Source of the DNA: Parabacteroides sp. An277
Lineage (GTDB): Bacteria > Bacteroidota > Bacteroidia > Bacteroidales > Tannerellaceae
Length of the DNA stretch: 64,000 nt
Assembly (NCBI RefSeq): GCF_002159645.1
Contig: NZ_NFJB01000007.1
Coordinates: 1-64,000, forward strand
Reading direction: 5' to 3'
The position numbers and the translations under genes were made by a program. The notes beneath the pieces were generated by a model. The model made no database searches. It was given only the letters and a program-made list of their open reading frames with translations, and was not told where the DNA came from. Positions 4,197 to 59,707 of the stretch are shown in pieces (position 1 is the first letter of the stretch; each line of letters opens with the position of its first letter).

Positions 4197-4588
4197 ACCG
4201 GCAGAGGCTAAATCAGGAATACTTTCGCCAAAGTAAACCCGATAGAGACTAAATCAGGGGCACTTTCGCCAAAGTAAACTCGATAGAGGCTAAATCAGGG
4301 GCACTTTCGTCAAAGTAAACCCGATAGAGGCTAAATCAAGAGCACTTTCGCCAAAGTAAACCCGATAGAGGCTAAATCAGGGGCACTTTCGCCAAAGTAA
4401 ACCCGATAGAGGCTAAATCAGGGGCACTTTCGCCAACGCAAACCCGATAGAGACTAAATCAGGGGTACTTTCGCCAACGCAAAGGTTTCTATCGCTGAAT
4501 CGAGGGCACTTTCACCAAAGCAAAGGTTTTTACCGCTGAATCGAGGGCACTTTCACCAAAGCAAAGACTTCTACCGCTGAATCGGGCA
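4197..4588. repeat. 41-bp tandem array A (nine copies)
   Basis: The anchor ACTTTC recurs at 4221, 4262, 4303, 4344, 4385, 4426, 4467, 4508 and 4549, always exactly 41 bases apart. Most units contain ACTTTCGCCAAAGT, an inverted repeat (ACTTT/AAAGT). The first six to seven copies have a CCGATAGAGGCTAAATCAGG half. The last copies change to a TACCGCTGAATCGAGGG half while keeping the period, so the array drifts along its length. It fills most of the 650-base gap between the CDF promoter and pheS. No gene is seen in it, and 41 is not a multiple of three. Confidence 0.95.
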
Positions 4589-4644
4589 AACGGAACCCAA
4601 ATCCAATTATTCGCGCCTCTCGATGCGAATGATTTCCCTAAATG

Positions 4645-4675
4645 TTGCAATATTCAAAATAAAGCCCTACATTTG
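4645..4675 (+). promoter_or_regulatory. pheS promoter
   Basis: TTG at 4645-4647 and TACATTTG at 4668-4675 are separated by 20 bases, the arrangement of Bacteroidetes housekeeping promoters. The -7 box is 32 bases before the pheS ATG. Confidence 0.7.
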
Positions 4676-4707
4676 CGACAAAATTATAAAAAAGCATTTT
4701 TGACGAA

Positions 4708-5727
4708 ATGATTGACAAGATAAAAGCCCTGCTCGAAGAGGTAGGACAACTGACAGCAGCCAACGCGGAGGAACTGGAAGCCCTTCGCATTAAATATTTG
4801 AGCAAAAAGGGAGCCATTTCCCAATTGATGAACGACTTCCGCAACGTCCCAGCCGAACATAAACGCGAAGTGGGCATCTACATCAACGAACTGAAAGAGA
4901 AAACCCAACAGAAAATCAATGAACTGAAAGAAAGTTTCGAGAACCAGCAAACCAGTTATAATGACATCGACCTGACGCGCACCGCTTACCCCATCGAACT
5001 GGGTACGCGCCATCCGCTCTCGCTCGTCAAGAAGGAGATTTGCGACATCTTCGGCCGCCTGGGCTTCAGCATCGCGGAAGGCCCTGAAGTAGAAGACGAC
5101 TGGCATGTGTTCTCATCGCTCAACTTCGCGGAAGACCATCCGGCACGCGACATGCAGGATACGTTCTTCATCCAACATGCCCCCGACGTCCTTTTGCGCA
5201 CGCATACCTCGTCGGTACAAACGCGCGTGATGGAAAAGCAACAACCGCCTATCCGCATCATCTGCCCGGGACGCGTCTACCGCAACGAAGCGATTTCCTA
5301 TCGCGCCCACTGCTTCTTCCACCAGGTAGAAGGACTTTACATCGACAAGAACGTATCGTTTGCCGACTTGAAACAGGCGTTGCTTTTCTTTGCCAAAGAG
5401 ATGTTTGGCGCAGACACGAAAATCCGCTTGCGTCCCTCCTATTTCCCCTTCACCGAGCCTTCGGCCGAGATGGATATCTCGTGCAACATTTGCGGAGGTA
5501 AAGGCTGTGCCTTCTGCAAACACACGGGGTGGGTGGAAATCTTAGGCTGCGGCATGGTCGACCCGAACGTGCTGGAAAACTGCGGTATCGACAGCCAGAT
5601 TTATTCCGGCTACGCGCTCGGCATGGGAATCGAACGAATTACAAACCTAAAATATAGAGTCAAGGACTTGCGCATGTTCTCGGAAAACGACATACGCTTC
5701 CTTGAGGAATTTGAATCAGCCAATTAA
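4708..5727 (+). CDS. pheS: Phenylalanine-tRNA ligase alpha subunit
   Basis: Catalytic subunit of the heterotetrameric enzyme that charges tRNA-Phe. The 339 residues hold an N-terminal coiled coil (about 1-85) and a class II synthetase core: motif 2 in GRVYRNEAISYRAHCFFHQ and motif 3 in GYALGMGIERI near the end. A cysteine cluster (CNICGGKGCAFC) precedes GWVEILGCGMV, as in many bacterial PheS. The beta subunit gene is not next to it in this window. Its promoter (4645-4675) directly follows array A, and a hairpin follows the gene at 5764-5792. Confidence 0.97.
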   Translation: MIDKIKALLEEVGQLTAANAEELEALRIKYLSKKGAISQLMNDFRNVPAEHKREVGIYINELKEKTQQKINELKESFENQQTSYNDIDLTRTAYPIELGTRHPLSLVKKEICDIFGRLGFSIAEGPEVEDDWHVFSSLNFAEDHPARDMQDTFFIQHAPDVLLRTHTSSVQTRVMEKQQPPIRIICPGRVYRNEAISYRAHCFFHQVEGLYIDKNVSFADLKQALLFFAKEMFGADTKIRLRPSYFPFTEPSAEMDISCNICGGKGCAFCKHTGWVEILGCGMVDPNVLENCGIDSQIYSGYALGMGIERITNLKYRVKDLRMFSENDIRFLEEFESAN

Positions 5728-5763
5728 AATTGTGACCAAACAATCATTGATGTACCAAACAAT

Positions 5764-5792
5764 CCCCGGACTTTCATAACCTGAGTCCGGGG
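5764..5792. terminator. Hairpin after pheS
   Basis: CCCCGGACT (5764-5772) pairs perfectly with AGTCCGGGG (5784-5792) around an 11-base loop, 37 bases after the pheS stop. It is followed by AAAA rather than U residues, so termination may be weak. Confidence 0.55.
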
Positions 5793-5819
5793 AAAACACA
5801 CCATATAAAACCTATCCAC

Positions 5820-6461
5820 ATGCGCAAAGAAGAACGATACAAAGGCATCTTAACGTGGTTCCAAACCCACGTGCCCGTAGCGGAAACGGAGCTTCATTAC
5901 GACGGAGATCCATACAAGCTCCTCGTGGCCGTCATTCTTTCGGCGCAATGCACAGACAAGCGAGTAAACCAAGTGACGCCTGCCCTGTTCGAAGCCTTTC
6001 CCACGGCAGAGGTCATGGCCGCTTCCTCGCCGGAAGTAATCTATGAATACATCAAAAGCGTCTCATATCCTCACAACAAAGCTAAGCATCTGGCCGGCAT
6101 GGCGCAAATGCTGATGGAAAAGTTTGGCGGGCAAGTGCCCTCAGAGGTGAAAGAACTAATGACGTTACCCGGCGTGGGACGTAAAACGGCGAACGTCGTA
6201 GCCTCCGTTATCTTTGGTGCACCCACCATGGCCGTCGATACACACGTGTTCCGCGTGGCCAACCGCCTCGGACTGACACTCGACAGCCGGACGCCCTTAG
6301 AGACAGAGAAAGAGTTGACACGCCACATACCCAAGGAACTCATCCCCATAGCCCATCATTGGCTGATTTTGCACGGCCGTTATACATGCCTTGCCCGCAA
6401 ACCCAAATGCATGGAATGCGGGCTCGCGCCGTGGTGTTTATACTTCTCCCAACAGAAATGA
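5820..6461 (+). CDS. nth: Endonuclease III (DNA glycosylase/AP lyase)
   Basis: Removes oxidised pyrimidines from DNA and nicks the abasic site in base excision repair. At 213 residues it has normal family length. The helix-hairpin-helix LMTLPGVGRKTANVV carries the catalytic Lys, and MAVDTHVFRV carries the catalytic Asp. The C-terminal cysteines form the C-X6-C-X2-C-X5-C iron-sulfur loop (CLARKPKCMECGLAPWC). Its stop codon overlaps the start of the next gene (ATGA), so the two are coupled. Confidence 0.97.
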   Translation: MRKEERYKGILTWFQTHVPVAETELHYDGDPYKLLVAVILSAQCTDKRVNQVTPALFEAFPTAEVMAASSPEVIYEYIKSVSYPHNKAKHLAGMAQMLMEKFGGQVPSEVKELMTLPGVGRKTANVVASVIFGAPTMAVDTHVFRVANRLGLTLDSRTPLETEKELTRHIPKELIPIAHHWLILHGRYTCLARKPKCMECGLAPWCLYFSQQK

Positions 6462-7261
6462 GACGATATCAGCGGGAATTGGGATTCGTACTCGTGGCTT
6501 TTCTCGTAGTAGGAAGTATCGTAAGTTATTTCTTCAACCAACTCAAACGGGAAAAGAGCGAGACGGCCGCTACGGTTTATTCCTTCGTGCCACCACATCC
6601 GGAAGCCCTCCTGCGTATCCAAGAAACAAACACTTGGCTGAAACTGATTGCCGGCGGAGAACGGGAACGACGATTGTTCGAGGAACATATTCCCGTTTTC
6701 TTCTTCCATCTTTTCGAGGAAATACCGGTACACGAAGCCCTTTTCAGCTTTCATGCCGAAGGCGTCGTCTGTTTGGTAAAAGCAAATCCCCTTGAGGCCA
6801 AACGACTATCGGCTACGACTCAACATTTATTGGATAACTATCCTCCGAAAAAGCAAGTCATCGGAACCACGCAACTCTCCTATTATACGGACGGACCGCA
6901 ACGTTTCCTGGGGACATTCTATCGGGAAGGCATTTGGGTGGCCTCTTATCATAAACTATTGCTCGAACAAGCAGGACAAACCACGCATTCACTCCCTCAT
7001 TTCCCGGCAGCTTCTTCCACCGTGAACCTGCTCTTTCCTTATGATAAGGAATGGATGCAGGCGAATATCTATAAATCCGAAGGGCGACTGTCGGCTTTCC
7101 TGCGTTTCCCCGTGGATACATTTCCAAATGATTCGCTCCAGATCTCCCTGGCTGACACGCTTCAACGCCGCTTCTGCCACCGTTTGCATTTACCACTCGA
7201 CAGCGTAACGGTGGAATCTACGTCAGATGACGACGCGCTTTACCTCACCCTCCGGTATTGA
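6458..7261 (+). CDS. Membrane-anchored protein of unknown function
   Basis: I do not recognise this family. The start was set to the ATG overlapping the nth stop codon (MRRYQRELGF); the frame is open further upstream but only inside nth. The protein has 267 residues: one N-terminal membrane helix (about 8-23, FVLVAFLVVGSIVSYFF), then a soluble domain that should face the periplasm. No catalytic motif is visible. It is translationally coupled to nth, although a periplasmic protein is an odd partner for a DNA glycosylase. Its stop abuts the stop of the converging MBL gene with no base between. Confidence 0.75.
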   Translation: MRRYQRELGFVLVAFLVVGSIVSYFFNQLKREKSETAATVYSFVPPHPEALLRIQETNTWLKLIAGGERERRLFEEHIPVFFFHLFEEIPVHEALFSFHAEGVVCLVKANPLEAKRLSATTQHLLDNYPPKKQVIGTTQLSYYTDGPQRFLGTFYREGIWVASYHKLLLEQAGQTTHSLPHFPAASSTVNLLFPYDKEWMQANIYKSEGRLSAFLRFPVDTFPNDSLQISLADTLQRRFCHRLHLPLDSVTVESTSDDDALYLTLRY

Positions 7262-8023
7262 TCAAAACTCAACGCTTAAATTATCATACGCCAAATGCAC
7301 ATGCGGAGGGAGCAACTTCTCGACCTCGGCATGCAAACCAATCTTGTGCGATTCATGCACCAGATAAGCCTCTTTCGGAGCAATCCGGCGAATGTAAGCC
7401 AATGCCTCGTCCAGTCCGGCATGCGTCGGGTGCTTGCTATCACGGCGAAGAGCATTAATCACGAGCAAATCCACACCTTCGAGCTTCGGAAATTCGCTTT
7501 CCGGTATGGTCTTCAGGTCTGTCAAGTAAGCTAAACGTCCGATGCGATAACCCAAGATAGGCAGTTTCCCGTGCATGAGCCGAATGGGCACAATCTCCAA
7601 ACCTGCCGCCTCGAAGGGTTCCGTCGTAATGGCATGCATATTAATATTCGGTACACCTGGATATTTATGCTCCGCAAAGACATAGGGAATACGCGTCTTT
7701 ATCGCATACGCCACATTCTCTTCGGCATAGACATTCACCTCGCCATAACGGCAAAACGGACGCAAATCGTCGAGGCCACCGACGTGGTCGTAATGCTCAT
7801 GCGTAATCAATACAGCATCCAACTGGTAGATACGATTCGTAATCACTTGCCAACGGAAATCCGGTCCGCAATCTATCAAAATGCGCCGTCCTTTCGTTTC
7901 GACGACGGCCGACGTCCGGAGCCGCCAATCTCGCTTGTCCTTGCTGGTACATACTTCGCACTGGCATCCGATTTCCGGTACACCCGTCGAGGTTCCTGTT
8001 CCTAAAAAGATGATTTTCATCAT
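7262..8023 (-). CDS. MBL-fold metallohydrolase (PhnP-like)
   Basis: A cytosolic metallo-beta-lactamase-fold hydrolase, probably a phosphodiesterase of the PhnP group. The 253 residues contain the metal motif HEHYDH at 75-80 and a CQCEVC cysteine group at 20-25, which in PhnP relatives helps form an extra zinc site. Later ligands are in MHGKLP, YLTDLK and VHESHK. The start overlaps the murB stop (ATGA), so it is the second gene of a murB operon. The true substrate is unknown; no phosphonate genes are nearby. Confidence 0.88.
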   Translation of the reverse strand: MMKIIFLGTGTSTGVPEIGCQCEVCTSKDKRDWRLRTSAVVETKGRRILIDCGPDFRWQVITNRIYQLDAVLITHEHYDHVGGLDDLRPFCRYGEVNVYAEENVAYAIKTRIPYVFAEHKYPGVPNINMHAITTEPFEAAGLEIVPIRLMHGKLPILGYRIGRLAYLTDLKTIPESEFPKLEGVDLLVINALRRDSKHPTHAGLDEALAYIRRIAPKEAYLVHESHKIGLHAEVEKLLPPHVHLAYDNLSVEF

Positions 8024-9018: not shown

Positions 9019-9050
9019 ATTGTATGTATGTTTCGTTTTTTAATCCCTGG

Positions 9051-9058
9051 CGAAGGTA
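9051..9058 (-). promoter_or_regulatory. Probable -7 box of murB
   Basis: TACCTTCG on the minus strand differs by one base from TAnnTTTG and is suitably placed before the murB start. Confidence 0.45.
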
Positions 9059-9111
9059 CGCATTTTATTTGGAGCAACCAGCAAACGAACCGGACAAAAT
9101 AGAAAGCGCAG

Positions 9112-9373
9112 CGTACGATTCGTCACCGATGAACAAATATGACGAATCTACCTTGTAGATTCATTTCCGTTGGTCAAATAAAAAGAATTGAATCTGTAGT
9201 TTCGTTTCCTTTAATCAACGGTAAAGAATCGACCTTGTAGATTCGTTATCGTTGACCAAAGATAAAGAATCGACGTTGTCGTTTCGTTACCGTTGAACAA
9301 AGGAAGAGAATCGACGTTGTAGACTTGTCATCGTTGACTAAAGATAACGAATCGACCTTGTCGTTTCATTGCC
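9112..9373. repeat. 41-bp tandem array B (seven copies)
   Basis: Aligned units begin at 9112, 9153, 9194, 9235, 9276, 9317 and 9358, exactly 41 bases apart. The consensus core is TTGTAGATTCGTT, then a CGTTGA/CCAAAGATAA part and GAATCGAC. Unit junctions form inverted repeats; around 9144-9162 GAATCTAC and GTAGATTC pair over eight bases. The array fills most of the gap between the murB promoter and the SMR gene stop. It shares the register of GATTCGTT and GAATCG with array C, so those two may be related. Confidence 0.93.
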
Positions 9374-9428
9374 AGAAGCTAAAAATAGAGAATTTACGTC
9401 CTCATAGAAGGAAAAACAGGGCCAGCAC

Positions 9429-9755
9429 TCAATGCGAGACCCATTTCAGCCCGATAATGGAAGCGATCAACGTCGTGATGAAAAAAAGACGGGCCCACGA
9501 AGCGGGTTCATGAAGAAAAAGAATGCCCAAAAGGACTGTCCCGACCGCCCCGATACCGGTCCACACGGGATAGGCCGTTCCGATAGGCAAAGTCTGTACT
9601 GCCTTGGCCAACAAGACCATGCTTAATATCAAACTCACTAAAAAACCTGCACCCCAAAGGTAATAGGCCATGCCCGCAGCCTCTTTCATCTTCCCCAAAC
9701 AAAACGCAAAGCCCGATTCAAAAAAACCGGCAATCACAAGTATCATCCAATCCAT
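9429..9755 (-). CDS. SMR-family exporter, SugE/Gdx type
   Basis: A 108-residue, four-helix small multidrug resistance protein that works as a dual-topology dimer exchanging cargo for protons. The sequence follows the SugE/Gdx subgroup (guanidinium exporters): it opens MDWMILVIAGFFESGFA with the central Glu of helix 1 at about residue 13, and has GTAYPVWTGIGAVGT in helix 3 and IIGLKWVSH at the end. No guanidine riboswitch was recognised upstream. A standard -7 box lies at 9784-9791. Substrate is inferred from subgroup only. Confidence 0.88.
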   Translation of the reverse strand: MDWMILVIAGFFESGFAFCLGKMKEAAGMAYYLWGAGFLVSLILSMVLLAKAVQTLPIGTAYPVWTGIGAVGTVLLGILFLHEPASWARLFFITTLIASIIGLKWVSH

Positions 9756-9783
9756 ATTTTTCTTTTTTCAATTGATTTGGGCG

Positions 9784-9791
9784 CAAAAGTA
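9784..9791 (-). promoter_or_regulatory. -7 box of the SMR exporter
   Basis: TACTTTTG on the minus strand, 28 bases before the ATG, matches the Bacteroidetes -7 consensus. Confidence 0.65.
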
Positions 9792-10326: not shown

Positions 10327-10333
10327 TCCGCTT

Positions 10334-14043: not shown

Positions 14044-14242
14044 ACTTGTCGCCACGTACAAACTGCAACGAGTCGGGATACGAGATTCGTTGTCTCCGTT
14101 CAATAGCAACGAATCGCAAGGCGCAATTCATTATCTCTTTCCAACGGCAACAAATTACAAGATGCGATTCGTTGTCTCTTTCTAACGACAACAAATTGCA
14201 AGACGCGATTCGTTGTCTCCATCCAACGGCAACGAATCGCAA
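14044..14242. repeat. 41-bp tandem array C inside the exporter operon (five copies)
   Basis: Aligned units start at 14044, 14085, 14126, 14167 and 14208, exactly 41 bases apart. A typical unit runs from GATTCGTTG through a TCTCC/TTCAACGG centre to CAACGAATC, so GATTCGTTG and CAACGAATC pair as nine-base arms around a 14-base loop. The array sits between the ATPase and permease genes of one operon. It could be transcribed as a run of hairpins. No open frame of note covers it. Confidence 0.93.
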
Positions 14243-14291
14243 GGTAAAGAAATTCCTTTTTATCTTCATGTATGCTATCTCCATCCGTTTT

Positions 14292-23344: not shown

Positions 23345-23402
23345 AGACCTCTTGCGAGGTCTCCCGCGCCCGTAACTATATATAAGGTAAGGCGTATCCG
23401 CG

Positions 23403-23646
23403 TGACAAGCCGGAAGAGCCGGCAGCTCCAGCGTGTTGTCGCATGACAAGCAGGAAGAGCTGGCGGCTCCAGCGTGTTGTTGCGTGACAAGTAGAAAGAG
23501 CTGGCGGCTCCGGTGCGTTGTCGCGTGACAAGTAGGAAGAGCCGGCAGCTCCGGTGTATTGTCGCGTGACAAGCCGGAAGAGCCGGCAGCTCCGGTGTAT
23601 TGTCGCGTGACAAGTAGAAAGAGCTGGCGGCTCTGGTGCGTTGTCG
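23403..23646. repeat. 41-bp tandem array D (six copies)
   Basis: TGACAAG recurs at 23403, 23444, 23485, 23526, 23567 and 23608, exactly 41 bases apart. Each unit has GAGCC or GAGCT, a five-base spacer and GGCTC or AGCTC (a short hairpin). The junction TTGTCGCGTGACAA is a second inverted repeat. The array ends 100 bases before the DUF6261-like gene. It is open in several frames on the minus strand, but the frames cycle because 41 is not a multiple of three, so coding is unlikely. Confidence 0.95.
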
Positions 23647-23745: not shown

Positions 23746-24828
23746 ATGAAAGTAAAACAGATAGACGAAATTCGCACAGAGGGCTTTGACAATGGAGCCC
23801 ATTTTGCATACCACACTACGGTATTGGGCTGGGTAAAGGCGGATGCTACGATTTCGGCCAAGTGCCCCAAATTTATAAATCCTTATGATACGTCGTTGGC
23901 GGAAGAGGATCGCGTAATGAAAACTTCAACTAAAAGTCTGCTGAGTGACGATATTGCGGCATCAGACCGGTTGCGCGACGAACTTTACCGTTCGTACCGG
24001 GATATGGTGAAGGCCATGAATGGCATTTCAATTCCAGAAATGGCCGAGGCGGCTAAAATCCTACAGCAGCATATCAAAGACTACAAAATTGACGTGCAGG
24101 CGCAACTGGATAAGGAAACGGGTAATTTATTGAACTTTACGAACGATTTGAAAGGTAAATATGCAGAACAAGTAGCCGCGTTGAACCTGACGAATATCGT
24201 GGATAAACTGGCCGAGGCAAACGAGCAGACCGCCGAATTGCTTCGCCAGCGGGATATCGAAAACAAAAGCCGCGAGATAGGCGCTACAAAGCGTGTCCGG
24301 GCAGAGGTGGATGAGGCATACCGCCAATTGATTCAAGTAATTAATGCATACGCTTTGATTGAAGGAGATGCAGATTATGCCGATTTTATCGACCAAATGA
24401 ACTCCCTGATCCGTCGCTATAGGCAACAAGTGTTAGGCCAAACGTCGGGCAATAAGAAGCCGGATGAGGGCGGCGACGAACCCACTCCCGAACCTGTCAC
24501 TCCCGAAATTACGGCCGTCTACCAAAAGGAAGAGGGCGACCCGGAAAATCCGCATCGCATCGAGCGAGGCAAACAAACCGGCGTAAACTATAAAGGCTTT
24601 ACGCTGAAGGGACAAGATGGTACGCTGGAACACGTCATCGGGCTCGTCAATGATTATGATTATGTCGAATGGATTAAGCCAGAGACCATCAGCAATGTCA
24701 CGGAGACCAGCTGCGAATTTACCATGGTCCCTGATTTAACGGAAGGACAATACAAAGTCCGCATCGAAACCTACGACGGCGGCAGTCCGCTGGTGGTGGA
24801 ATATCCGGAGCCCATCACGTTATGGTAA
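23746..24828 (+). CDS. DUF6261-like helical protein with C-terminal Ig-like domain
   Basis: 360 residues, no signal peptide. Residues 1-230 are mostly helical with coiled-coil character and fit, from memory, the Bacteroidales DUF6261 family. A Pro/Glu-rich linker (DEGGDEPTPEPVTPE, about 240-256) leads to a beta-rich domain (about 257-360) similar to the Ig-like DUF4469 fold that caps HU-like proteins. Its function is unknown. The gene stands alone in a repeat-rich kilobase. Its last 66 bases are about 74% identical to a broken stretch at 45688-45753, so a related gene has decayed elsewhere in the window. Confidence 0.75.
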   Translation: MKVKQIDEIRTEGFDNGAHFAYHTTVLGWVKADATISAKCPKFINPYDTSLAEEDRVMKTSTKSLLSDDIAASDRLRDELYRSYRDMVKAMNGISIPEMAEAAKILQQHIKDYKIDVQAQLDKETGNLLNFTNDLKGKYAEQVAALNLTNIVDKLAEANEQTAELLRQRDIENKSREIGATKRVRAEVDEAYRQLIQVINAYALIEGDADYADFIDQMNSLIRRYRQQVLGQTSGNKKPDEGGDEPTPEPVTPEITAVYQKEEGDPENPHRIERGKQTGVNYKGFTLKGQDGTLEHVIGLVNDYDYVEWIKPETISNVTETSCEFTMVPDLTEGQYKVRIETYDGGSPLVVEYPEPITLW

Positions 24829-24873
24829 TGGACAATTGAGAATTGACAATTGACAATTAAAATATGCTTGTAG

Positions 24874-33015: not shown

Positions 33016-33073
33016 ACCTGTACTGGTATCACCCCATAAGCAGTACAGGTATGACCCTCTTAGCAGTACAGGT
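33016..33073. repeat. Three copies of CAGTACAGGT upstream of the RND operon
   Basis: The 10-mer occurs inverted at 33016-33025 (ACCTGTACTG) and direct at 33041-33050 and 33064-33073. The direct pair is 23 bases apart. Together they form a possible operator cluster about 240 bases upstream of the candidate promoter. No regulator gene is adjacent. The rest of this roughly 540-base gap is C-rich and shows no gene. Confidence 0.6.
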
Positions 33074-33195
33074 ATCAAGCGATTACTCTTGGATAAAACC
33101 TGTCATTAGACTAAAGAAAGACGAACGCAGATATACCTATATTCCTGCCTTCAACGTCTTAGATCAAACGCCGCTTGCCTACGAGACAAAAAAAA

Positions 33196-37922: not shown

Positions 37923-38233
37923 TCCTTTTCCAATTATTTTTTTCGCTCCATTTCATCATGCGAATCGTTTCAGTTTATAAATCAACCCATTAAAAACCAT
38001 TCCTATTCATCAATTATGTTGTAAAACATATATTTTATCATCGAATTTTCTTTAAAAAATTCGCAATCATCCCTTGGTGGAATCCAAACAGCGCAAAAAT
38101 CTGTTCCGATTAGGGCTGGACACGACTCCGGACCCTAACGGCGGGACGAATAAAAGGCTTGGGAGGACTCGCAAACCCTCCGCCCGCTTGCCAACGCCTT
38201 TTTCCCCGCCTCCGAAATGCTTTTTTAATCTGT
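37923..38233. other. Intergenic stretch without a recognised gene
   Basis: AT-rich to about 38090, then a GC-rich 130 bases with no usable frame. I see no RNA gene, hairpin with a U-run or operator here. Array G follows directly. Confidence 0.6.
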
Positions 38234-38415
38234 TTTACCGGTGAAATCGATAAAAAACTACTTTTTCATATCATTTCATGGATAAAATATATCAATAAAT
38301 AGAATTTTCATACCATTTCACCGATGAAATCATACAAAAATCATTATTTCTATATTATTTCATCCATGAAATCCATCAACAACCACCATTTTTAGTGTAT
38401 TTCACCGCTGAAACA
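38234..38415. repeat. 40-42-bp tandem array G (five copies)
   Basis: The palindromic core, such as TTTCACCGATGAAA or TTTCATCCATGAAA, recurs at 38234, 38274, 38316, 38358 and 38400 (spacings 40, 42, 42, 42). Each core is a five- to six-base inverted repeat around a four-base centre; the AT-rich bases between the cores vary more. It lies about 120 bases upstream of the GH109 promoter. Confidence 0.85.
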
Positions 38416-40028: not shown

Positions 40029-40119
40029 CATTGACAATTGACAATTGATTATTGACAATTAAAAATAAGAGGTGACTGCCTGTATAATTTTCAATTGTCA
40101 ATTTTCAATTGTCAATTAT
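40029..40119. terminator. TTGACAATT-rich convergent region
   Basis: Copies of TTGACAATT on the left (40030-40062) face copies of AATTGTCAA on the right (about 40089-40114), giving a long AU-rich inverted repeat between two converging genes. Similar motifs occur at 24835-24859, 26930-26955 and 45822-45835, always near gene ends. A terminator role is inferred. Confidence 0.5.
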
Positions 40120-42423: not shown

Positions 42424-42544
42424 AAATTTCTACCCAGATTTTTCTTCCCTACCACGTAGAGAGCAAATTTCTGCCCAGATTTTTCTTCCCTACAGCGTAG
42501 GGAGCAAATTTCTGCCCGGATTTTTCTTCCCTACCACGTAGGGA
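42424..42544. repeat. 41-bp tandem array E inside an operon (three copies)
   Basis: AAATTTC recurs at 42424, 42465 and 42506, exactly 41 bases apart, and the units are nearly identical. Each contains CCCTACCACGTAGGG or a close variant, a six-base inverted repeat with a three-base loop. It fills most of the space between the Gfo/Idh and TIM-barrel genes and directly abuts the Gfo/Idh stop codon. Confidence 0.93.
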
Positions 42545-43930
42545 TTACTTCTTCTCAACGGGCGTGCCCGGAACCGGGACGGTAAATCCGCTCATGTCCA
42601 TCTTGCCCAGATTCAAATCCTTCGGCGTGTAATCGAGCGCGGCTGCCGTCATCGCGTCCCACGTCGTTTCAGCACCCGTGTAGGCCGACTCGCGTCCCAT
42701 GATAGCCGCCATGTTCGACACGGCCGTCTCCGAAGCCTGCTCAATGACCTTACCCGCACGGATGCAGTTAATCCAGTTCACATGCTCCAAGGTGTAGGGA
42801 TCGGTCTGCTTGTAGGTATTCTTTTCGGCTTCGAAATCATATTTCCAGACGACGTTGCCCGCCAGGTCCTTAATCTCCATCGTCGAACTGTCCCACGAGC
42901 CGCGCGTTCCCTGAATAAACTCGCTGACATTGTTGGCGCAACCATCAATCTGGCGACACATGCTATGCAGGTGGACGCCGTTCTCCATCGTGAAGTCGAT
43001 GCTGAAATTATCGTACTGATCGCCCGTCAAGCGGCGTTGGCGCGAACCGAACCCGACAGCCTTCGCCGGCTTCAAACCACTGAACCACGTGAACACGTCG
43101 ATGTTATGCACATGCTGCTCGACGATGTGGTCGCCCGACAGCCATTTCCAGTTGACCCAATCCTTAATCATCCATTCGCAATCGCTCCAGCCGGCCTGAC
43201 GCTCGCGGTACCACAACATGCTCTGGTTCCAATAAACCGCACCACCCGTGATTTCGCCAATCGCGCCTTCCATTATCTTCTTATACGACTCGACGTAACT
43301 GCGCTGGTGATGACGCTGCGTGCCCGTCACGACGCACAAGTTCTTGGCCGCCGCCTGCTTTGCCGTCGCCATGATGGTACGATACCCGACAGCATCCACG
43401 CAGATAGGTTTCTCCAAGAAACAATGTTTGTTCTTCTCGACCGCATATTTGAAATGCTCTGGACGGAAAAACGGGGGAGTCGCCACGATGACCACGTCCA
43501 CGCCGCTGTCGATGACCTGCTTGTAAGCATCCAATCCCACGAAACGCCGTTCGGCCGGGATGTCAATGTTCTTTTCCTTCTTCAATTTATCCGCCAGCTC
43601 GTCGACGCGCTCCTGGAACGTATCGCCTAAGGCCGTAATCGTCACACCGTTCGCCGCCGCGAGGAAATTGAATGCCGCGCCCGAACCGCGTCCGCCGCAA
43701 CCAATCACACCCGCCTTCAGCTCTTTGCCGTCTGTTGCCATATCCGGCAGTTCAGGAATGTAATACGACCCCGGTTCCCGAAGCGGCTTCACGGCGCTTT
43801 CCGCGCTGCCACCATTTCCACCACACGAAGTCAATATCGAGGCAGCGCTACCGCCACCTACTGCACTCAAAGCCCCGGCCATGGCCGTGCTCTTCAAAAA
43901 TGAACGTCTGCTTATTCCATTCTTTTTCAT
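42545..43930 (-). CDS. Exported Gfo/Idh/MocA oxidoreductase
   Basis: 461 residues. A twin-arginine signal (SRRSFLKSTAMAGALSAVGG) ends in a lipobox-like LTSCGGNG. The NAD(P)-binding loop is GVIGCGGRGSG; the conserved Lys is in FLEKPICVDAVG. The C-terminal half is the usual Gfo/Idh beta sheet. It lies 23 bases downstream of the cytochrome-SUMF1 gene and upstream of the TIM-barrel isomerase, a pairing typical of exported sugar-oxidation modules in Bacteroidetes. Substrate unknown. Confidence 0.9.
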   Translation of the reverse strand: MKKNGISRRSFLKSTAMAGALSAVGGGSAASILTSCGGNGGSAESAVKPLREPGSYYIPELPDMATDGKELKAGVIGCGGRGSGAAFNFLAAANGVTITALGDTFQERVDELADKLKKEKNIDIPAERRFVGLDAYKQVIDSGVDVVIVATPPFFRPEHFKYAVEKNKHCFLEKPICVDAVGYRTIMATAKQAAAKNLCVVTGTQRHHQRSYVESYKKIMEGAIGEITGGAVYWNQSMLWYRERQAGWSDCEWMIKDWVNWKWLSGDHIVEQHVHNIDVFTWFSGLKPAKAVGFGSRQRRLTGDQYDNFSIDFTMENGVHLHSMCRQIDGCANNVSEFIQGTRGSWDSSTMEIKDLAGNVVWKYDFEAEKNTYKQTDPYTLEHVNWINCIRAGKVIEQASETAVSNMAAIMGRESAYTGAETTWDAMTAAALDYTPKDLNLGKMDMSGFTVPVPGTPVEKK

Positions 43931-53309: not shown

Positions 53310-53317
53310 CAAAAGTA
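53310..53317 (-). promoter_or_regulatory. -7 box of the etfB operon
   Basis: TACTTTTG on the minus strand, 35 bases before the chosen etfB start, matches the -7 consensus and decides against the long reading frame. Confidence 0.7.
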
Positions 53318-53437
53318 GTTATTAAATGGAAATATACCAGCAAAGAGGGCGAAAAAATCGCAAAAGAAAAACCATTCTCCTCCTCCCAAAACTTAGAAAC
53401 GCCCGACACAAAACCCGAAACATCCGACCTAATCTCT

Positions 53438-53521
53438 ATCTTTAGGCTAAAGATACATATCTTTAAGTTGCAGATACGTATCTTTAGGCTGCATATATAT
53501 ATCTTTAGCCTAAAGATAGAG
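53438..53521. repeat. 21-bp tandem array H (four copies) upstream of etfB
   Basis: ATCTTTA recurs at 53438, 53459, 53480 and 53501, exactly 21 bases apart. The best unit, ATCTTTAGCCTAAAGAT, is a perfect eight-base inverted repeat around one base. 21 bp is two helical turns, about half the period of the other arrays. It lies about 120 bases upstream of the etfB -7 box and about 70 bases past the helicase stop. Confidence 0.92.
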
Positions 53522-53589
53522 ATTTCCTCGAAGGAAAAAAGTTTTCCCCCGGGCACTAATGGGATAAAGTCCTGCTTCTTTTACAATAT

Positions 53590-56500
53590 CTATGGGAGAA
53601 GATCGAAATACCCACCCTGCTCTTTGACAAAGCCAATGAGCTGACGGAAGGTTTCATTGCGTGAAAGGAGGTCGGGATTGCCCACGAGGAAAAGCTGCTC
53701 GCGGGCGCGGGTCAGGGCCACGTTCAGCTTGCGGTCGATTAGGGTACCCTCCTCTTCGAACACATTTCCGGCGAGGAAATCCAGTTGGTAGCCACGCTTC
53801 ACGGTGAATCCATACACAATCACATCCCGTTCGCTTCCCTGGTATCGCTCGACGGTATCAATCGACACGTCCCGCAACGCTTCGATGCCAAACCGCTCTA
53901 TCTCCGAACGAATCACGGCGATTTGATTGCGGTACGGAACGATTACCCCAACCGTCTGTGTCGCCGAAAAAGGCTTTCCGTTTTGCACATAAAGCGACCA
54001 GACGCTCCGTACCAACCGGGCGACCAGACGCGCCTCTGCCCCATTCACTTTGGCGGGCTCGGCACAACGCTCATGCCGTAAAGCGAAAAAGGCCAAACGA
54101 TGGGTAGCCACCAGTTGCTCGATTTCCGACGTTCCCCGGTGTGGGAAATCCAGCTCCCGCAATTGATGCGCCATCGGGACGGGCTTTAATTTGCAACCAT
54201 AAAAGAAAAGATTGGAAAAGAGGCTGACAGCCGGGTGCATACGTCCCTGTTTTTCCATGCAAAAAACAAGCGAGGCATTCCCCTGTTGCAAGCGAAGGAG
54301 GCGTTCGAAGAGCGACTGGCGACAATTCTCCAGGCCGATGGAACGGAGCAACGGCTCGGTCACTTCCGATTCTTTTTCGCTCTGTTGCACCACCGCCGGA
54401 AGCTGTTTATGGTCGCCAATGAGGACAAAGCGGCGGATGGCGTTCTGCTCTCCATGCTTCGCGCTCAAAATGCCGAGCAAATGCGGTTCCAAAATCTGGG
54501 AAGCCTCGTCTACAATTGCCAAAGAAAAGGATTTCAGACTGAAAAGGGCCATTTGGGAACTAAAGGCAGCCGTCGTCCCCACCAGGATGCGCATCTCGCG
54601 GAGCGCGTTTTGGATGTCGGAAAGGCGTGCATAACCTTCCATGCGGTTCCGGAGAAGATAAGGCTTATAAGCGGCATCGCACGAAGCGTCTGTCCCGATG
54701 CGGATAAAATCCAACCCATGCCGGACGAGCTTACTGCAGATTTCATCGACGGCACGATTCGTATACGAGAGCAAAAGGACAGACGCTGTTTCATCTCGAA
54801 GCTCTTCCTGCAAGATGCTCATTAATCCAAAAGAGGTCTTGCCTGTTCCCGGCGGACCAATCAAAAGGAAATAATCTTGTGCCTGTTTTGCCCGGAGCAC
54901 TAGTTCGTTGAACTCCGGACTCTCTCCGCCCAAACTATAATCGCCCATTAGCCGGAGCGACGTGTCTACACGCGGTGCCCGTTGTCCCAAGAGACACATC
55001 CGCCGTTCCTTATGGGCCGAGAGAAAGGCATAGAGTCCTCTATATAATGTGGTATAGGAAGATTCCACGAAATCATGCTCGATAGCCCACCGATACGTAC
55101 TCGGCACGTCGAACACCGCCCGGTTCTTTTGGGGTGCCCGGAGCGAGAGCGTCACCTCGTGGGCCCGCAAATCGCTGAGGCTACAACGAAGCAACAGGGC
55201 ATGACGGACATCCGGTTCCTCTGTAACCGGGTAGGCATAGAGCATCACCACATCCCCTACACGGAAGTTAGGCAGGTCGTTCTCCTCTTCATCCGGGACG
55301 AGGAGCGTCACTTGGTCGATTCCAGTACCCGAAACAGATTCCAATTGTTTCAATTGCAGGCGGTCGAAGATATTTCCTGCTTGTCGTTTCTCATCGAGCG
55401 AAGCATTCCAGAGCGAGGCAAAACCGCTGGCTTCTTGCGTCGCGTTGCCCAATTTGGATAAGATATGTTCCTTCTCGACAAAAGTAAAGAAGCGGTCGAA
55501 GTAGGCGCGCTCCATCTCCGACGCCGTTTGGTACGGACGGAACAGGGCCTGGAGTTGCGGACGAGTGTATTCTTCCCACAACTTGCCCGATACGTTTTTC
55601 ACGTTCAAAGCCTCCGGCGTCAAGGCGTGGAATCTTTTTCCTGCTTCTCCTTCGCCATAGCCTAATTCCAGATGGACAATCTCATTCCGTACCCGGATTG
55701 CTTCAAAAAGCAACTTGGGCGCGGCTCCCTCTTTCAACAAGCCGTCTTCATATTTCGAATAAAGGAGGAAGCAAAGGATTTGCTCGTTGCGCAGTCCGTA
55801 ATTATAATGGAGCAGGGCAAGGTAAAGCAGCATCTGGACATAATGTTTCTCGACGTGACGGTTGGTCAGATACTCTCGTTTGCCCGATTTCTGCTCCATC
55901 AGCACATGCTTGTCCAATTGCAAGAGGTCCATACGTCCTTGGATACCTAACATCTCGGAGACGAACGAAGGTTCCAAGACAATTTGTTCCATGTCGATGC
56001 CCGGTATCCGACAGAATTGTTCCTGTATCATGCGGTGGAGGTTCAGTTGTTGCTTCCGGGCTTCGGTATGGAAGGTCGGGTCCATGTCCGGACAAGTAAC
56101 CAATCCCAGCGGATTGTGTTGGAAGAAACGTTGTACGCTGGCTTTATAGTCTGGCTCGTGCGTCGCTCCGCCATAGATTTCTTCGTCCAAAAGTTGGCTG
56201 GCAAAATTACCCAGCAAGATGGCTTTCGAGTTGGCTGCCGGCTTAATTTTATTCACCAAATAGGTCAACGGCGTCACTCCGTATGTCTCGAAGCAGGCGG
56301 CAATGGAAGAAATATCCAGCAAGAAATCCGGTTCGACGATAATCAACTCCGGGAAATAAACACCCTCCTCCAAGCGTGGATGCACCAGGTTCAGTTGCGT
56401 ATGTGGCGTGAGGAGCTTCCCGATATAATCCCAAGCACCCGAAAAGTTCGTAAAAGCATAACAGGCAGCTATCGTTTCCGATTCCACGCCTACCCTCTTT

Positions 56501-56961
56501 CCATAGATGAGGCGGTCGTCCCAGCGGTCGACGATCATCCGGATGCAGTTCGGCGTCGAAGCGGCATGTACTTCGCTTGTCTCCATCGTTTCGGGCAACT
56601 CGCCGGCCAACTCTTCCGGAATCTCGCACGCATACACGAATGCCACAAATTCTACAAATGCCTTCAAATCATAGCGATACGCCTTCTTCAGAAACGCGTC
56701 TTCGTAGCGCGCCAATTCCCGGCAACGGGCACGAAACCGATTTATGTTCCGATACATCTCGGCGTCCGCCTCCAAACGTTTGCAAATAAAATCCATCCGT
56801 GCAAACGGACCGGCAAAGCTCATCCCGCCTTCTCGCGTATGTTCATTCAATATTTCATTCCATATCCGGTACAGTTCCGCATAACGCACCCGTACATCTT
56901 CGTCTCCGGCAAAATGCACGTCCGCGATTTCCTGCCAATAATTCGCCACGCTTTGTTTCAT
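53590..56961 (-). CDS. Dna2-like nuclease-helicase
   Basis: 1123 residues. The C-terminal half is a superfamily 1 helicase of the Upf1/Dna2 group: Walker A GPPGTGKTS at about 700, Walker B AIVDEASQ at about 815, GDHKQLPAVV, and VERYQGSERDVI and LTRAREQLFLVG near the end. The N-terminal half contains a PD-(D/E)XK-type nuclease core around 335-365 (IQGRMDLLQLDK then MEQKSGK). The likely role is DNA end or flap processing in repair. A TACCTTTG box lies only five bases before the ATG, so the mRNA may be leaderless or the true start may be further in. Confidence 0.87.
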   Translation of the reverse strand: MKQSVANYWQEIADVHFAGDEDVRVRYAELYRIWNEILNEHTREGGMSFAGPFARMDFICKRLEADAEMYRNINRFRARCRELARYEDAFLKKAYRYDLKAFVEFVAFVYACEIPEELAGELPETMETSEVHAASTPNCIRMIVDRWDDRLIYGKRVGVESETIAACYAFTNFSGAWDYIGKLLTPHTQLNLVHPRLEEGVYFPELIIVEPDFLLDISSIAACFETYGVTPLTYLVNKIKPAANSKAILLGNFASQLLDEEIYGGATHEPDYKASVQRFFQHNPLGLVTCPDMDPTFHTEARKQQLNLHRMIQEQFCRIPGIDMEQIVLEPSFVSEMLGIQGRMDLLQLDKHVLMEQKSGKREYLTNRHVEKHYVQMLLYLALLHYNYGLRNEQILCFLLYSKYEDGLLKEGAAPKLLFEAIRVRNEIVHLELGYGEGEAGKRFHALTPEALNVKNVSGKLWEEYTRPQLQALFRPYQTASEMERAYFDRFFTFVEKEHILSKLGNATQEASGFASLWNASLDEKRQAGNIFDRLQLKQLESVSGTGIDQVTLLVPDEEENDLPNFRVGDVVMLYAYPVTEEPDVRHALLLRCSLSDLRAHEVTLSLRAPQKNRAVFDVPSTYRWAIEHDFVESSYTTLYRGLYAFLSAHKERRMCLLGQRAPRVDTSLRLMGDYSLGGESPEFNELVLRAKQAQDYFLLIGPPGTGKTSFGLMSILQEELRDETASVLLLSYTNRAVDEICSKLVRHGLDFIRIGTDASCDAAYKPYLLRNRMEGYARLSDIQNALREMRILVGTTAAFSSQMALFSLKSFSLAIVDEASQILEPHLLGILSAKHGEQNAIRRFVLIGDHKQLPAVVQQSEKESEVTEPLLRSIGLENCRQSLFERLLRLQQGNASLVFCMEKQGRMHPAVSLFSNLFFYGCKLKPVPMAHQLRELDFPHRGTSEIEQLVATHRLAFFALRHERCAEPAKVNGAEARLVARLVRSVWSLYVQNGKPFSATQTVGVIVPYRNQIAVIRSEIERFGIEALRDVSIDTVERYQGSERDVIVYGFTVKRGYQLDFLAGNVFEEEGTLIDRKLNVALTRAREQLFLVGNPDLLSRNETFRQLIGFVKEQGGYFDLLP

Positions 56962-56966
56962 GCACG

Positions 56967-56974
56967 CAAAGGTA
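56967..56974 (-). promoter_or_regulatory. -7 box immediately before the nuclease-helicase gene
   Basis: TACCTTTG on the minus strand, five bases from the ATG. Transcription from it would start at about the start codon. Confidence 0.55.
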
Positions 56975-57014
56975 AAGAGTTTTTAATCTACAAATCGGAA
57001 GATTCTAAAAAGAA

Positions 57015-57063
57015 AAGAACGGAAGTCTATCGCTCTATTTAGCTATTATAGACTTCCGTTCTT
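57015..57063 (-). terminator. Terminator after tRNA-Arg
   Basis: AAGAACGGAAGTCTAT pairs perfectly with ATAGACTTCCGTTCTT (16 bp). On the minus strand it follows the tRNA by two bases and ends in TTTTCTTTTT. Confidence 0.92.
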
Positions 57064-57065
57064 AG

Positions 57066-57139
57066 TGATCGAGTTGGGATTCGAACCCAAGACCCACAGC
57101 TTAGAAGGCTGTTGCTCTATCCAGCTGAGCTACTCGACC
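57066..57139 (-). tRNA. tRNA-Arg (UCU)
   Basis: Full cloverleaf on the minus strand: acceptor GGTCGAG with CTCGATC and discriminator A, D-arm with GCTCAGCTGGATAGAGC, anticodon stem-loop CAGCCTTCTAAGCTG (anticodon TCT), T-arm GGGTTCGAATCCC. CCA not encoded. Confidence 0.96.
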
Positions 57140-57156
57140 ATCCTTTTTTCGTGCTG

Positions 57157-57186
57157 CAAAGGTAGGCGTTTATTTTGAATATACAA
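57157..57186 (-). promoter_or_regulatory. tRNA-Arg promoter
   Basis: On the minus strand TTTG (57183-57186) and TACCTTTG (57157-57164) are spaced by 18 bases, close to the Bacteroidetes consensus, just upstream of the tRNA. Confidence 0.75.
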
Positions 57187-57188
57187 AA

Positions 57189-58280
57189 TTATTTGAGCGT
57201 TTTTAGTTCGCTCTTGTGGCATTGGCTATCTAAATACCATTGATATAAACGTTTTACGCCCTCCTCTATTTCGATTTGATGATGCCATCCGAGGCGGTGG
57301 AGCTTCGTTACGTCGGTCAGTTTGCGCATCGTCCCGTCCGGTTTAGTGGCATCAAAGCGGATTTCTCCTTCGTAACCTACCGTCTTTTGGATGAGACGCG
57401 CCAACGCTGCGATGCTGATTTCTTTTCCTGTTCCGATATTAATATGGCAATTGCGGATTTGCGTCTCTCCGGTTTCGTAAGTGTCTTTGAAATCAACCTG
57501 CTCCATGATGTAGACGGTGGCATCGGCCATTTCTTCACTCCAGAGGAACTCACGCAGCGGTTTGCCGGTTCCCCAGAGCTCGATTCGGTCCGGATAAATG
57601 CCGTATCGGGCCAGTTTCTGCGGAATGGAATCTTCGCTGCCGGACACGGGACGAATCTCCAAATCGCGCCGCAAGGCTTTCTCGTCTCCCTCGCGGAGGC
57701 ATTTTGCCAAATAAATCTTGCGGAGCATGGCGGGAAGCACATGGCTCGTCTGGAGGTCGAAATTATCGTTCGGGCCATACAGATTCGTGGGCATCACGGC
57801 AATGTAGTTCGTACCATATTGCAGATTGAAACTCTCGCACAGTTTCAGCCCCGCGATTTTGGCAATGGCGTACGGTTCGTTGGTGTATTCCAGCGGAGAA
57901 GTCAGTAGCGCCTCCTCACGAATGGGCTGCTCGGCATCGCGCGGATAAATGCAGGTGCTGCCCAAGAATACCAGTTTACGCACGTCGTGTCGGAAGCTCT
58001 CGCCGATAACGTTCTGCTGTATTTGCAGATTCTGATAAATGAAATCCGCGCGGTAACGATTGTTTGCCATAATGCCACCGACGTGGGCCGCTGCGAGGAT
58101 GACACATTCGGGGCGTTCCTCGTCGAAGAAACGACGCACCGCTACGCTGTCCAGCAAATCCAACTCCGCATGTGTCCTTCCCACTAAATTCGTATACCCC
58201 TTTTCCTGCAAATTTTTCCAGATGGCCGAGCCGACCAATCCGCGATGCCCGGCTACATAGATTTTCGTTTGTTTCTCCAT
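57189..58280 (-). CDS. fcl: GDP-L-fucose synthase
   Basis: Epimerises and reduces the 4-keto-6-deoxy-mannose intermediate to GDP-L-fucose with NADPH. 363 residues of the extended SDR family: GHRGLVGSAIW at the NADP-binding loop, catalytic YAIAK in the YxxxK motif and MPTNLYGPNDNFD. It is four bases downstream of gmd, which makes its substrate. The product feeds fucosylated capsule or glycoproteins in Bacteroidales. Confidence 0.96.
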   Translation of the reverse strand: MEKQTKIYVAGHRGLVGSAIWKNLQEKGYTNLVGRTHAELDLLDSVAVRRFFDEERPECVILAAAHVGGIMANNRYRADFIYQNLQIQQNVIGESFRHDVRKLVFLGSTCIYPRDAEQPIREEALLTSPLEYTNEPYAIAKIAGLKLCESFNLQYGTNYIAVMPTNLYGPNDNFDLQTSHVLPAMLRKIYLAKCLREGDEKALRRDLEIRPVSGSEDSIPQKLARYGIYPDRIELWGTGKPLREFLWSEEMADATVYIMEQVDFKDTYETGETQIRNCHINIGTGKEISIAALARLIQKTVGYEGEIRFDATKPDGTMRKLTDVTKLHRLGWHHQIEIEEGVKRLYQWYLDSQCHKSELKTLK

Positions 58281-58284
58281 TTGC

Positions 58285-59373
58285 TTATGCCTCCTCGTTT
58301 AAGTGGTCTTTCAGATAGAGCTTCCGGACGAAACGCATATCGTGGCGCACCATGATACGCACCAACTCTTCGAACGAGGTCTTGCGCGGATTCCATCCCA
58401 AGAGCGTGCGGGCTTTCGTAGGGTCGCCGAGGAGTTGTTCCACTTCGGCCGGACGGAAATATTTCGGATCTACTTCCACCAGCACGCGGCCTGTCGCTTG
58501 GTCGATGCCCTTTTCGTCTACGCCTTCGCCCTCCCAGCGCAAATCGATACCGACTTCATGAAATGCCAACGTGCAGAAATCGCGGACGGAATGATATTCG
58601 CCGGTCGCAATCACAAAGTCTTCCGGCGTCTCGTGTTGCAGCATCAGCCACATGCATTCCACGTAGTCTTTTGCATATCCCCAATCGCGCAGCGCGTTCA
58701 GGTTTCCGAGGTAAAGTTTGTCTTGGTGCCCCTGCCGGATGCGTGCCGCCGCCAAGGTTATTTTCCGCGTCACGAACGTCTCGCCGCGCCGTTCGGATTC
58801 GTGGTTGAACAAGATGCCGTTCACCGCAAACATGCCGTAACTCTCGCGGTAGTTTTTCGTAATCCAGAAGCCGTATTGCTTGGCTACCCCGTAAGGCGAA
58901 CGCGGGTAGAAGGGCGTCGTTTCCCGCTGCGGCACCTCTTGCACGAGTCCGAACAGCTCTGAAGTAGAGGCTTGGTAAATCTTCGTGCGCTGCTCGTATC
59001 CCAAAAGGCGCACCGCTTCGAGGAGGCGGAGCGTCCCGATGGCATCCGCTTCGGCCGTGTATTCCGGCACGTCGAAGCTCACCTTCACGTGGCTCTGCGC
59101 CGCCAGGTTGTAGATTTCGTCCGGTTTTACCGTATGAATGATGCGGACGAGCGAACTCGAGTCCGTCATGTCGCCCCAATGCAGGTTCACGAGCCGCTTG
59201 TTTTTCATATCGCGCACCCATTCGTCGAGGTACAGATGCTCGATTCTTCCCGTATTGAACGACGACGAGCGGCGCATAATCCCATGCACTTCGTATCCTT
59301 TTTCTATCAAAAATTCGGCGAGGAAAGAGCCGTCTTGCCCCGTTATCCCCGTAATCAACGCTACTTTCGACAT
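58285..59373 (-). CDS. gmd: GDP-mannose 4,6-dehydratase
   Basis: Converts GDP-mannose to GDP-4-keto-6-deoxymannose, the first step towards GDP-fucose. 362 residues from the ATG at 59371-59373. Visible features are [20 protein letters not shown], then [17 protein letters not shown], and [10 protein letters not shown] with the YxxxK pair. The frame continues upstream for 116 codons of repetitive Pro/Cys/Leu-rich sequence that is array F, so I excluded it. It leads the gmd-fcl operon; a weak TACCTTAG box lies at 59403-59410. Confidence 0.96.
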
Positions 59374-59450
59374 AATTTCTTCCTTTTTTCCTGTTTTGGC
59401 GACTAAGGTACGCATTTTTCCGCAATTTTGCACGATGGGAAAATGGGGCG

Positions 59451-59707
59451 GAATTCTCCGCAGACCTCCCAACGTTGTCGGCAGCTCGGAGGAATTCTCC
59501 ACAGACCTCCCGCAAGTTGCAGCAAGGCGGCGGAAATCTCCGCAAGCCTCCCACAAGCTGCAGCAAGGCAGCGGGATTTTCCGCAAGCCTCCTGCAAACT
59601 GCAGCAAGGCAGCGGGATTTTCCGCAAGCCTCCCGCAAACTGCAGCAAGGCGGCGGGATTTTCCGCAAGCCTCCTGCAAGCTGCAGCAAGGCGGCGGGAT
59701 TTTCCGC
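59451..59707. repeat. 41-bp tandem array F (seven copies)
   Basis: Aligned positions 59451, 59492, 59533, 59574, 59615, 59656 and 59697 (the last one cut short) are exactly 41 bases apart. A typical unit has GGGATTTTCCGCAAGCCTCC followed by TGCAAACTGCAGCAAGGCAGC. Inverted repeats inside it include TGCAAACTGCA. The array lies between the gmd start and the folB stop. It is open in several frames on both strands, because stops are rare in it, but 41 is not a multiple of three. Confidence 0.95.

Follow-up and report, generated by a model that had tools for sequence, protein, structure and literature searches.

Intergenic DNA of Parabacteroides sp. An277 carries many tandem arrays whose sequences differ while the hairpin shape of their units tends to be common. 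We analysed a window comprising bases 1–64,000 of contig C69 in the draft genome (G000; 3.68 Mb in 101 contigs), where an earlier inspection of the letters alone (the sequence-only reading) had pointed out eight such arrays (A to H, Table 1). The arrays were followed into a 790,526-base sample of the same genome (window included, about 21% of the genome) and into 24 relatives within the genus. The feature is real, widespread and odd in this clade. Its evidence consists of two period classes, hairpin symmetry of the units, covariation in three sets of related units, and related arrays at differently flanked sites. The 41-bp period probably reflects hairpin size. We somewhat favor the view that the arrays are non-autonomous intergenic repeats built of short hairpins, unusually diversified, and similar to repetitive extragenic palindromic (REP) sequences and bacterial interspersed mosaic elements (BIMEs) or to BrickBuilt.

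The nearest match to the PheS protein is a Parabacteroides distasonis An897 record (89% of residues), followed by Tannerellaceae bins (85%). The relative compared most closely, G020, is a sister species with a pheS 88% identical to that of our genome.

Two Period Classes of Intergenic Arrays

Arrays were found with Tandem Repeats Finder (TRF) at a score of at least 50, merging overlapping rows; among the overlapping rows of an array we kept the smallest period that scored 55% of the best or more. This gave 138 arrays in the 790,526 bases: 57 with a period of 21–23 bp, one of 24, and 54 of 40–43. Periods of 25–39 and 44–82 are absent from the sample, and one array has a period of 83. Only 1 array turned up in a local first-order Markov control matched to these 790,526 bases and 1 in 100 kb of E. 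coli K-12, so the arrays are not due to chance. TRF is not blind to other periods, since elsewhere in the Bacteroidales it reports 73, 69, 204 and others.

For the pooled statistics, arrays with a common 11-mer were collapsed to remove redundancy, and arrays whose consensus length is unequal to their period were left out, as they were from the symmetry test below. The non-redundant pool holds 65 arrays of the 41-class (mean period 41.35, standard deviation 0.64) and 116 of the 22-class (22.07, 0.90), with 4 arrays at 25–39, one at 44–60 and 35 at 15–19. Genome-wide peaks at 41–42 and 21 bp had been predicted by the sequence-only reading, and the histogram does peak at 41–42 and at about 21 in this 21% of the genome. 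The smaller figure needs amending: 21 is right for H itself, but the small class centers on 22 once families are collapsed.

Both classes also occur in G020, where the density of the 41-class is 11 in 379 kb versus 55 in 791 kb of our genome. Genes were predicted with a simple codon model written for this analysis, not with a standard gene finder. By this model, 52 of the 54 41-class arrays and 58 of the 60 22-class arrays are intergenic, and the two classes make up about 9% and 3.7%, respectively, of the sample's non-coding DNA. Three contigs start inside 41–42-bp arrays (L005 1–192, L011 3–203 and L012 1–155); the draft assembly therefore probably underestimates array copy number.

A third class, of period 7 (AATTGAC, ATTGACA, AATTGTC, ACAGTTG), accounts for 8 of the 138 arrays and for 36 among the arrays of 80 other Bacteroidales loci. 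Examples lie at 24827–24858, 40030–40060 and 40086–40117 of the window and at 136–245 of L276. G020 also has a 77-bp tandem array of about 20 copies (L169 6801–8381).

Hairpin Structure of the Repeat Units

The typical 41-class unit consists of two hairpins of about 17 nt each (stem of about 7 bp, loop of about 3 nt) and linkers of about 3.5 nt, while the typical 22-class unit is one hairpin plus a linker. Two such hairpins and two linkers add up to 41. Under the best reflection, 61% of positions are paired in our own units of 40–43 bp, against 47% in shuffles. Symmetry of the whole unit exceeds the unit's own 95th shuffle percentile in 37/53 arrays of period 40–43 in our genome, 3/8 in G020 and 5/13 in other Bacteroidales; the corresponding figures for periods 20–24 are 18/54, 11/27 and 14/45. 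No array of period 15–19 exceeds it (0/5 and 0/25, 0/30 together). The units thus carry inverted repeats more often than shuffled ones do, as had been claimed for most units of the window.

Pairing is about 0.6–0.8 for partners 4–16 nt apart and 0.35–0.5 for those at 18–21 nt, shuffled units giving about 0.48. In 19/54 units the second-best dyad lies 20–21.5 bases from the best, a figure that comes without a chance expectation. The two-hairpin unit is an average picture from which single units depart; by eye, arrays C and K resemble one longer hairpin.

Sequence Relatedness and Covariation

The 115 arrays of both classes in our sample fall into 80 components by blastn at E < 1e-4. Genome-wide, all candidates were scored for A, B, C and D (33 for C). 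Array A has one relative (C58:49760, 82%), D has one (C47:17017, 90%), B has two (C43:9927, 74%; C9:57437, 71%), and C has none elsewhere in the genome. For E, F and H the best 40 candidates were scored; here F has at least two relatives (C48:4187, 76%; C6:55925, 83%, part), and E has none among the best 40 of its 154 candidates, nor in the 790-kb sample. Element H is dispersed, with at least 29 other places in our genome and at least 37 in G020 including its own site. At E < 1e-3, none of B, C, E, F and G has a relative within the 790-kb sample, which for G is the only part of our genome compared.

The sequence-only reading held the arrays to be unlike apart from a probable link between B and C. 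They are indeed mostly unrelated, but A, D, B and F do have relatives elsewhere, and the B–C link is weak: a two-sequence comparison gives 67% over 144 bases on opposite strands (E = 4e-4), and the link is missing from the genome-wide search and from array-versus-array blastn at E < 1e-4. Gibbs sampling on 63 non-redundant 41-units returned 7.51 bits at width 10 (6.94–7.25 in four shuffles), 8.27 at width 16 (7.60–8.19) and 9.55 at width 24 (8.46–8.62), the observed set having been given more restarts than the shuffles. A common motif signal is slight at most, so the sequence-only reading was right that period, not sequence, is common, and this holds for the fifth of the genome that was sampled as well as for sister species.

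Relatives can come to look unlike while the period and the hairpin places stay, as is seen from compensated stem changes in the T family, the Q family and one 22-bp array. The T family occupies eight places, three in our genome and five in that of G020. Among its column pairs at least 3 apart, covariation is strongest at hairpin pair 4–12, which is G-C in 19 and T-A in 17 of the distinct units (36/36); a single array, L271, contains both forms. The Q family, also at eight places, has five of its top eight column pairs on two hairpin dyads (16 distinct units), and TTCCATTT and CCATT are unchanged while the stems vary. In the 22-bp array L032/L164 (29 distinct units), a single dyad holds the top three column pairs. 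Because the units are related, the column-pair cells lack independence, and we give no p-value. Changes were also counted within 100 arrays, leaving out those with fewer than three clean units: 29 of the 43 double changes are complementary, against 18/60 in the control. The argument that a mobile repeat, had it spread, would leave matching sequences is weakened, as the T, Q and H families do spread and some stems of T, Q and the 22-bp array change in compensated pairs.

Orthologous Sites and Array Copies

Arrays at corresponding sites of the two species range from conserved to absent. Array G is kept in G020 (74% over 174 bases), and two 22-class arrays are found in both species (L032/L164 and L029/L165). 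The site of E has three copies with the stem CCCTAC/GTAGGG here and about two copies with CCCTAA/TTAGGG in G020. At the site of C, G020 has a 42-bp array that blastn does not align to C even at an E threshold of 10, and at L025:2303 a 41-bp array here corresponds to a two-copy 82-bp array there, with a similarity of at most 9 bases. The G020 site of B holds palindromic sequence and no 41-array, and that of A holds no array. Shorter, array-free counterparts in G020 were found for L031 (two adjacent 22-class arrays) and L025:16757 (a 40-bp array), and the G020 T array L272 has an array-free counterpart in our genome. Three less clear site pairs (L025:8158, L025:10235 and L029:14044) were left uncounted.

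Arrays A, K and T have only the array in common with their relatives, not the flanks. More is shared by D and its relative C47:17017 (a left leader of about 139 bases) and by Q1 and Q2 (about 50 bases to the right). All eight T arrays start on the same hairpin and six of them end on it. Inverted flanks pass the score threshold at 5/61 41-class and 4/87 22-class arrays; with swapped flanks, 0.3% and 0.9%, respectively, attain that score. By eye, Q2, Q3 and Q5 have inverted ends around AAATGCC. One 41-bp array (L034 4271–4627) lies within an inverted repeat; its two flanks of about 170 bases both match G020 L170 3546–3719, in opposite orientations.

Arrays of the Window

TRF on the window recovered all eight arrays where the sequence-only reading had placed them, and the stretches named there sum to about 1.74 kb (1.7 kb had been given). 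The exact 41-bp period ascribed to A–F is confirmed by an indel-free 41-bp row for each, G and H gave 42/84 and 21 where 40–42 and 21 had been read, and all eight lie outside codon-model genes. The ninth array in Table 1, which the sequence-only reading lacked, has two relatives within the 790-kb sample. Outside the arrays, the window contains a perfect (TGCT)17 run at 161–228, near a gene that by eye resembles a MATE transporter; this is a candidate phase-variable simple repeat.

Table 1. Tandem arrays in the 64,000-base window (ORF, open reading frame; CDF, cation diffusion facilitator)
Feature	Position	Strand	Period (bp)	Units	Repeat	Neighbors and flanks
Array A	4203–4584	.	41, row without indels (TRF)	~9	half-unit holding CTTTCGCCAAAG persists; sequence of other half shifts near right third	divergent CDF cation transporter gene (minus) and pheS (plus)
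Array B	9117–9393	.	41, row without indels; also 82-bp row with 4% indels at right end	~6	inverted repeat GATTC...GAATC	murB and small gene, both minus
Array C	14080–14243	.	41, row without indels	4	GCGATTCGTTG...CAACGAATCGC	two genes, by eye ABC-transporter parts
Array D	23399–23646	.	41, row without indels	6	by eye, two hairpins: TTGTC-GCG-TGACAA and GAGC-CGGCA-GCTC	divergent genes
Ninth array	33020–33077	.	23	2.5	GTACAGGTA family	
Array G	38233–38413	.	42/84, 3% indels	~4–5	TTTCA-NNNN-TGAAA	divergent genes; inverted repeat CCTCSGAAATGCTTTTTT common to its flanks
Array E	42424–42544	.	41, row without indels	3	CCCTACCACGTAGGG hairpin	last base adjoins stop codon of ORF 42545–43930 (minus)
Element H	53418–53530 (~113 bases)	.	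21	4, at 53437–53518	TATCTTTAG-GCTAAAGATA	G020 copy L157 has inverted flanks ATCCGAGAAAAACTC
Array F	59447–59707	.	41, row without indels	~6	by eye, GCGGGATTTTCCGC and GCTGCAGC	gmd and next minus gene

Discussion

On the growth mechanism, the copying enzyme and any function of these hairpin-built repeats, we infer the following. Arrays would lengthen and shorten by whole units through slippage or unequal exchange, and some may have been copied whole, without flanks, to new intergenic sites. Compensated changes in the stems would leave the hairpin shape loosely intact; selection could act on the folded strand, or repair could use one arm of a hairpin as the template for its partner. Sequences would then drift apart, and the period, set by hairpin plus linker length, would stay. 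By analogy with REP/BIME and BrickBuilt, the arrays would for the most part be selfish or neutral, perhaps with a secondary role at the 3′ ends of mRNAs.

Several observations weigh against this picture. Whole-unit symmetry does not exceed the 95th percentile in 16/53 arrays of period 40–43 in our genome, 5/8 in G020 and 8/13 elsewhere. The next four column pairs of the T family lie outside the hairpin pairs, perhaps as an effect of lineage, and most of the changes seen inside arrays disrupt pairing (436 single versus 43 double changes); the strongest covariation nevertheless falls on hairpin pairs, which argues that the fold is kept, but loosely. Of the T arrays, L044 stops after the second hairpin and L272 extends into a hairpin of the second kind, and no ends are common to all arrays. 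L037:10677 and L277, also T arrays, are next to the same gene and may thus represent a single old locus; by eye, the flanks of the remaining T arrays are unlike. No clear target duplication was seen, and none could be read at L272 against its array-free counterpart. No transposase emerged as the common factor in a search that covered Y1_Tnp. Finally, hairpin size gives a narrow period, but not the reason why the size is so fixed or why three-hairpin periods (about 62) are absent.

The Y1_Tnp domain (PF01797) has one match in our genome and none in eight array-bearing relatives (G020, G001, G003, G005, G009, G010, G011 and G015). Mobilization of the type of the REP-associated tyrosine transposase (RAYT) or IS200 was rejected because of its absence from these eight relatives.

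A system blind to sequence, in which an enzyme or a replication pathway of this clade makes or copies arrays from any short hairpin of about 17 nt, paired (41) or single (22), is an unlikely candidate. If it exists, hundreds of unrelated arrays of equal step would arise and replace each other at the same sites, and each hairpin would keep its fold because one arm serves as the copy template for its partner. The copying mechanism with a fixed step that the sequence-only reading had offered survives as a possible step set by hairpin size, but no enzyme for it was found.

An origin by mutation alone seems unlikely to a similar degree. Here hairpins would cause polymerase slippage and template switching, palindromic arrays would arise anew between genes and be kept palindromic by quasipalindrome correction, without transposition or selection, and loss of SbcCD would favor the process. 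The unlike arrays at the site of C and at L025:2303 in the two species, which also speak for the favored reading, are as expected, as are the absence of array A from G020 and the lack of relatives of C. Moreover, G000, G020, G001, G015 and G023 have neither an SbcD above the cut-off nor any strong match to SbcC, and 41-class arrays occur in 4/5 genomes without SbcD versus 5/20 genus members with it (G003, G005, G009, G010 and G011; one-sided Fisher test about 0.04, kinship not controlled). This comparison leaves out the period-84 match of G008, which resembles tandem tRNA genes, and G025, G026, G031 and G039, which belong to other families. The array counts of eight genus members were already known, and the SbcD prediction was tested only on genomes added afterwards, with a mixed result: arrays were found in 2/3 predicted to be rich (G001 1, G015 2, G023 0) and in 1/12 predicted to be poor (G011 2). 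Against it, G009 has SbcD and yet the highest density (4 in 40 kb), and G023, without SbcD, has no 41-class array in 77 kb; the samples range from 20 to 791 kb, and the genomes of G015 (76%) and G023 (88%) are incomplete. Genomes without SbcD stand in several places of the pheS tree, many forks of which are weak. The SbcCD of E. coli is reported to require a stem of at least 8–16 bp (PMC3733652), so that 7-bp stems may escape it anyway. The link between SbcCD loss and arrays is thus weak and suggestive only. Slippage alone, moreover, does not give what is seen in related arrays, which recur with the same start at places with different flanks.

A function at the RNA level, with transcribed hairpin runs protecting 3′ ends or attenuating downstream genes, is doubtful. 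Of the 41-class arrays, 31 lie at co-directional sites (64,666 intergenic bases), 10 at convergent sites (15,900), 8 at divergent sites (29,739) and 3 at edges. At the co-directional sites of G000 and G020, the arrays are nearer to the 3′ end of the upstream gene in 38/51 cases for the 22-class (p = 0.0006) and in 22/34 for the 41-class (p = 0.12), as such a role would have it. Sense-strand mismatches also favor G-T over A-C (34 vs 20 in the 41-class, 20 vs 14 in the 22-class), but the counts run the opposite way at convergent and divergent sites, where no strand is favored (12 vs 24 and 8 vs 12), so this bias is within noise. T arrays are found both along and against the direction of transcription, and Rfam finds two tRNAs and nothing else in the window.

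It is very unlikely that a helically phased nucleoid or structural protein binds the dyads, selection keeping them on one helix face: 41.35 is near four turns (10.34 bp per turn) and both arms are symmetric, as expected for a dimer, but the four and two turns invoked for a single such protein require periods of 2:1, and half of 41.35 is 20.7, about 1.4 bp from 22.07 with standard errors below 0.1, so that one pitch does not fit both classes; no strong motif is common to the 63 41-units, in-phase periods near 31 or 62–63 are absent or nearly so (missing in our own sample), and the length of hairpin and linker together suits both classes with no need of phasing.

Comparison with Known Repeat Systems

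The hairpin-built repeats favored here have partial counterparts. Literature searches, with subscription papers and preprints outside their scope, found nothing on palindromic repeats in intergenic tandem arrays of Bacteroidetes or Parabacteroides, and no bacterial paper on 41-bp repeats was among the matches listed. Regular spacing recalls clustered regularly interspaced short palindromic repeats (CRISPR), and some CRISPR repeats are palindromic; the units here are contiguous and alike, with no unique spacers.

BrickBuilt, a minisatellite miniature inverted-repeat transposable element (MITE) of Porphyromonas gingivalis, has 23-nt units that follow one another in tandem without gaps, between genes and inside a small repeat element, with strain-variable copy number, 19 loci in ATCC 33277, and a leader and tail that can be missing (PMC4596501). 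The host here also belongs to the Bacteroidales, and the 22-class, with its mean of 22.07, agrees with a gap-free intergenic repeat of about 23 nt. BrickBuilt is one sequence family with a leader, a tail and inverted ends that match insertion sequence (IS) elements (PMC4596501). Unlike it, the arrays here have many unrelated sequences and an additional 41-class, and in the families examined their ends are usually just the first hairpin. A common leader and tail with terminal inverted repeats is lacking in A, K and T, where the array stands alone; IS ends were not compared.

REP/BIME elements of the GTAG and CGTC super-families are short intergenic palindromes, often paired, sometimes in tandem and mostly downstream of genes, and the CGTC type is reported from Bacteroidetes without a dedicated transposase (PMC3733652). 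A short palindromic intergenic unit is found here too (37/53 symmetric; 52/54 and 58/60 intergenic). REPs carry an unpaired tag and have a single sequence, or very few, in high copy, whereas the 41-class consists of small, gap-free families of fixed period. Counting its own place, A is at 2 places, D at 2, B at 3 and C at 1, and among the best 40 candidates F is at no fewer than 3 and E at no fewer than 1; only H, of the 21-class, reaches high copy. Some T copies begin with CG followed by TCC, no search having been aimed at an unpaired GTAG or CGTC tag. We do not file the arrays under REP/BIME or BrickBuilt because the 41-class has no high-copy sequence, no RAYT (Y1_Tnp) in eight array-bearing relatives, and no common leader and tail.

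Surveys of repeats by sequence clustering would count these arrays as dozens of unrelated minisatellites. Families that are alike in shape and not in sequence separate recognition by sequence from recognition by fold, two things usually bound together in studies of REPs and MITEs. They make it a testable question whether small palindromic repeats are spread by enzymes that read sequence or arise where replication and repair act on hairpins.

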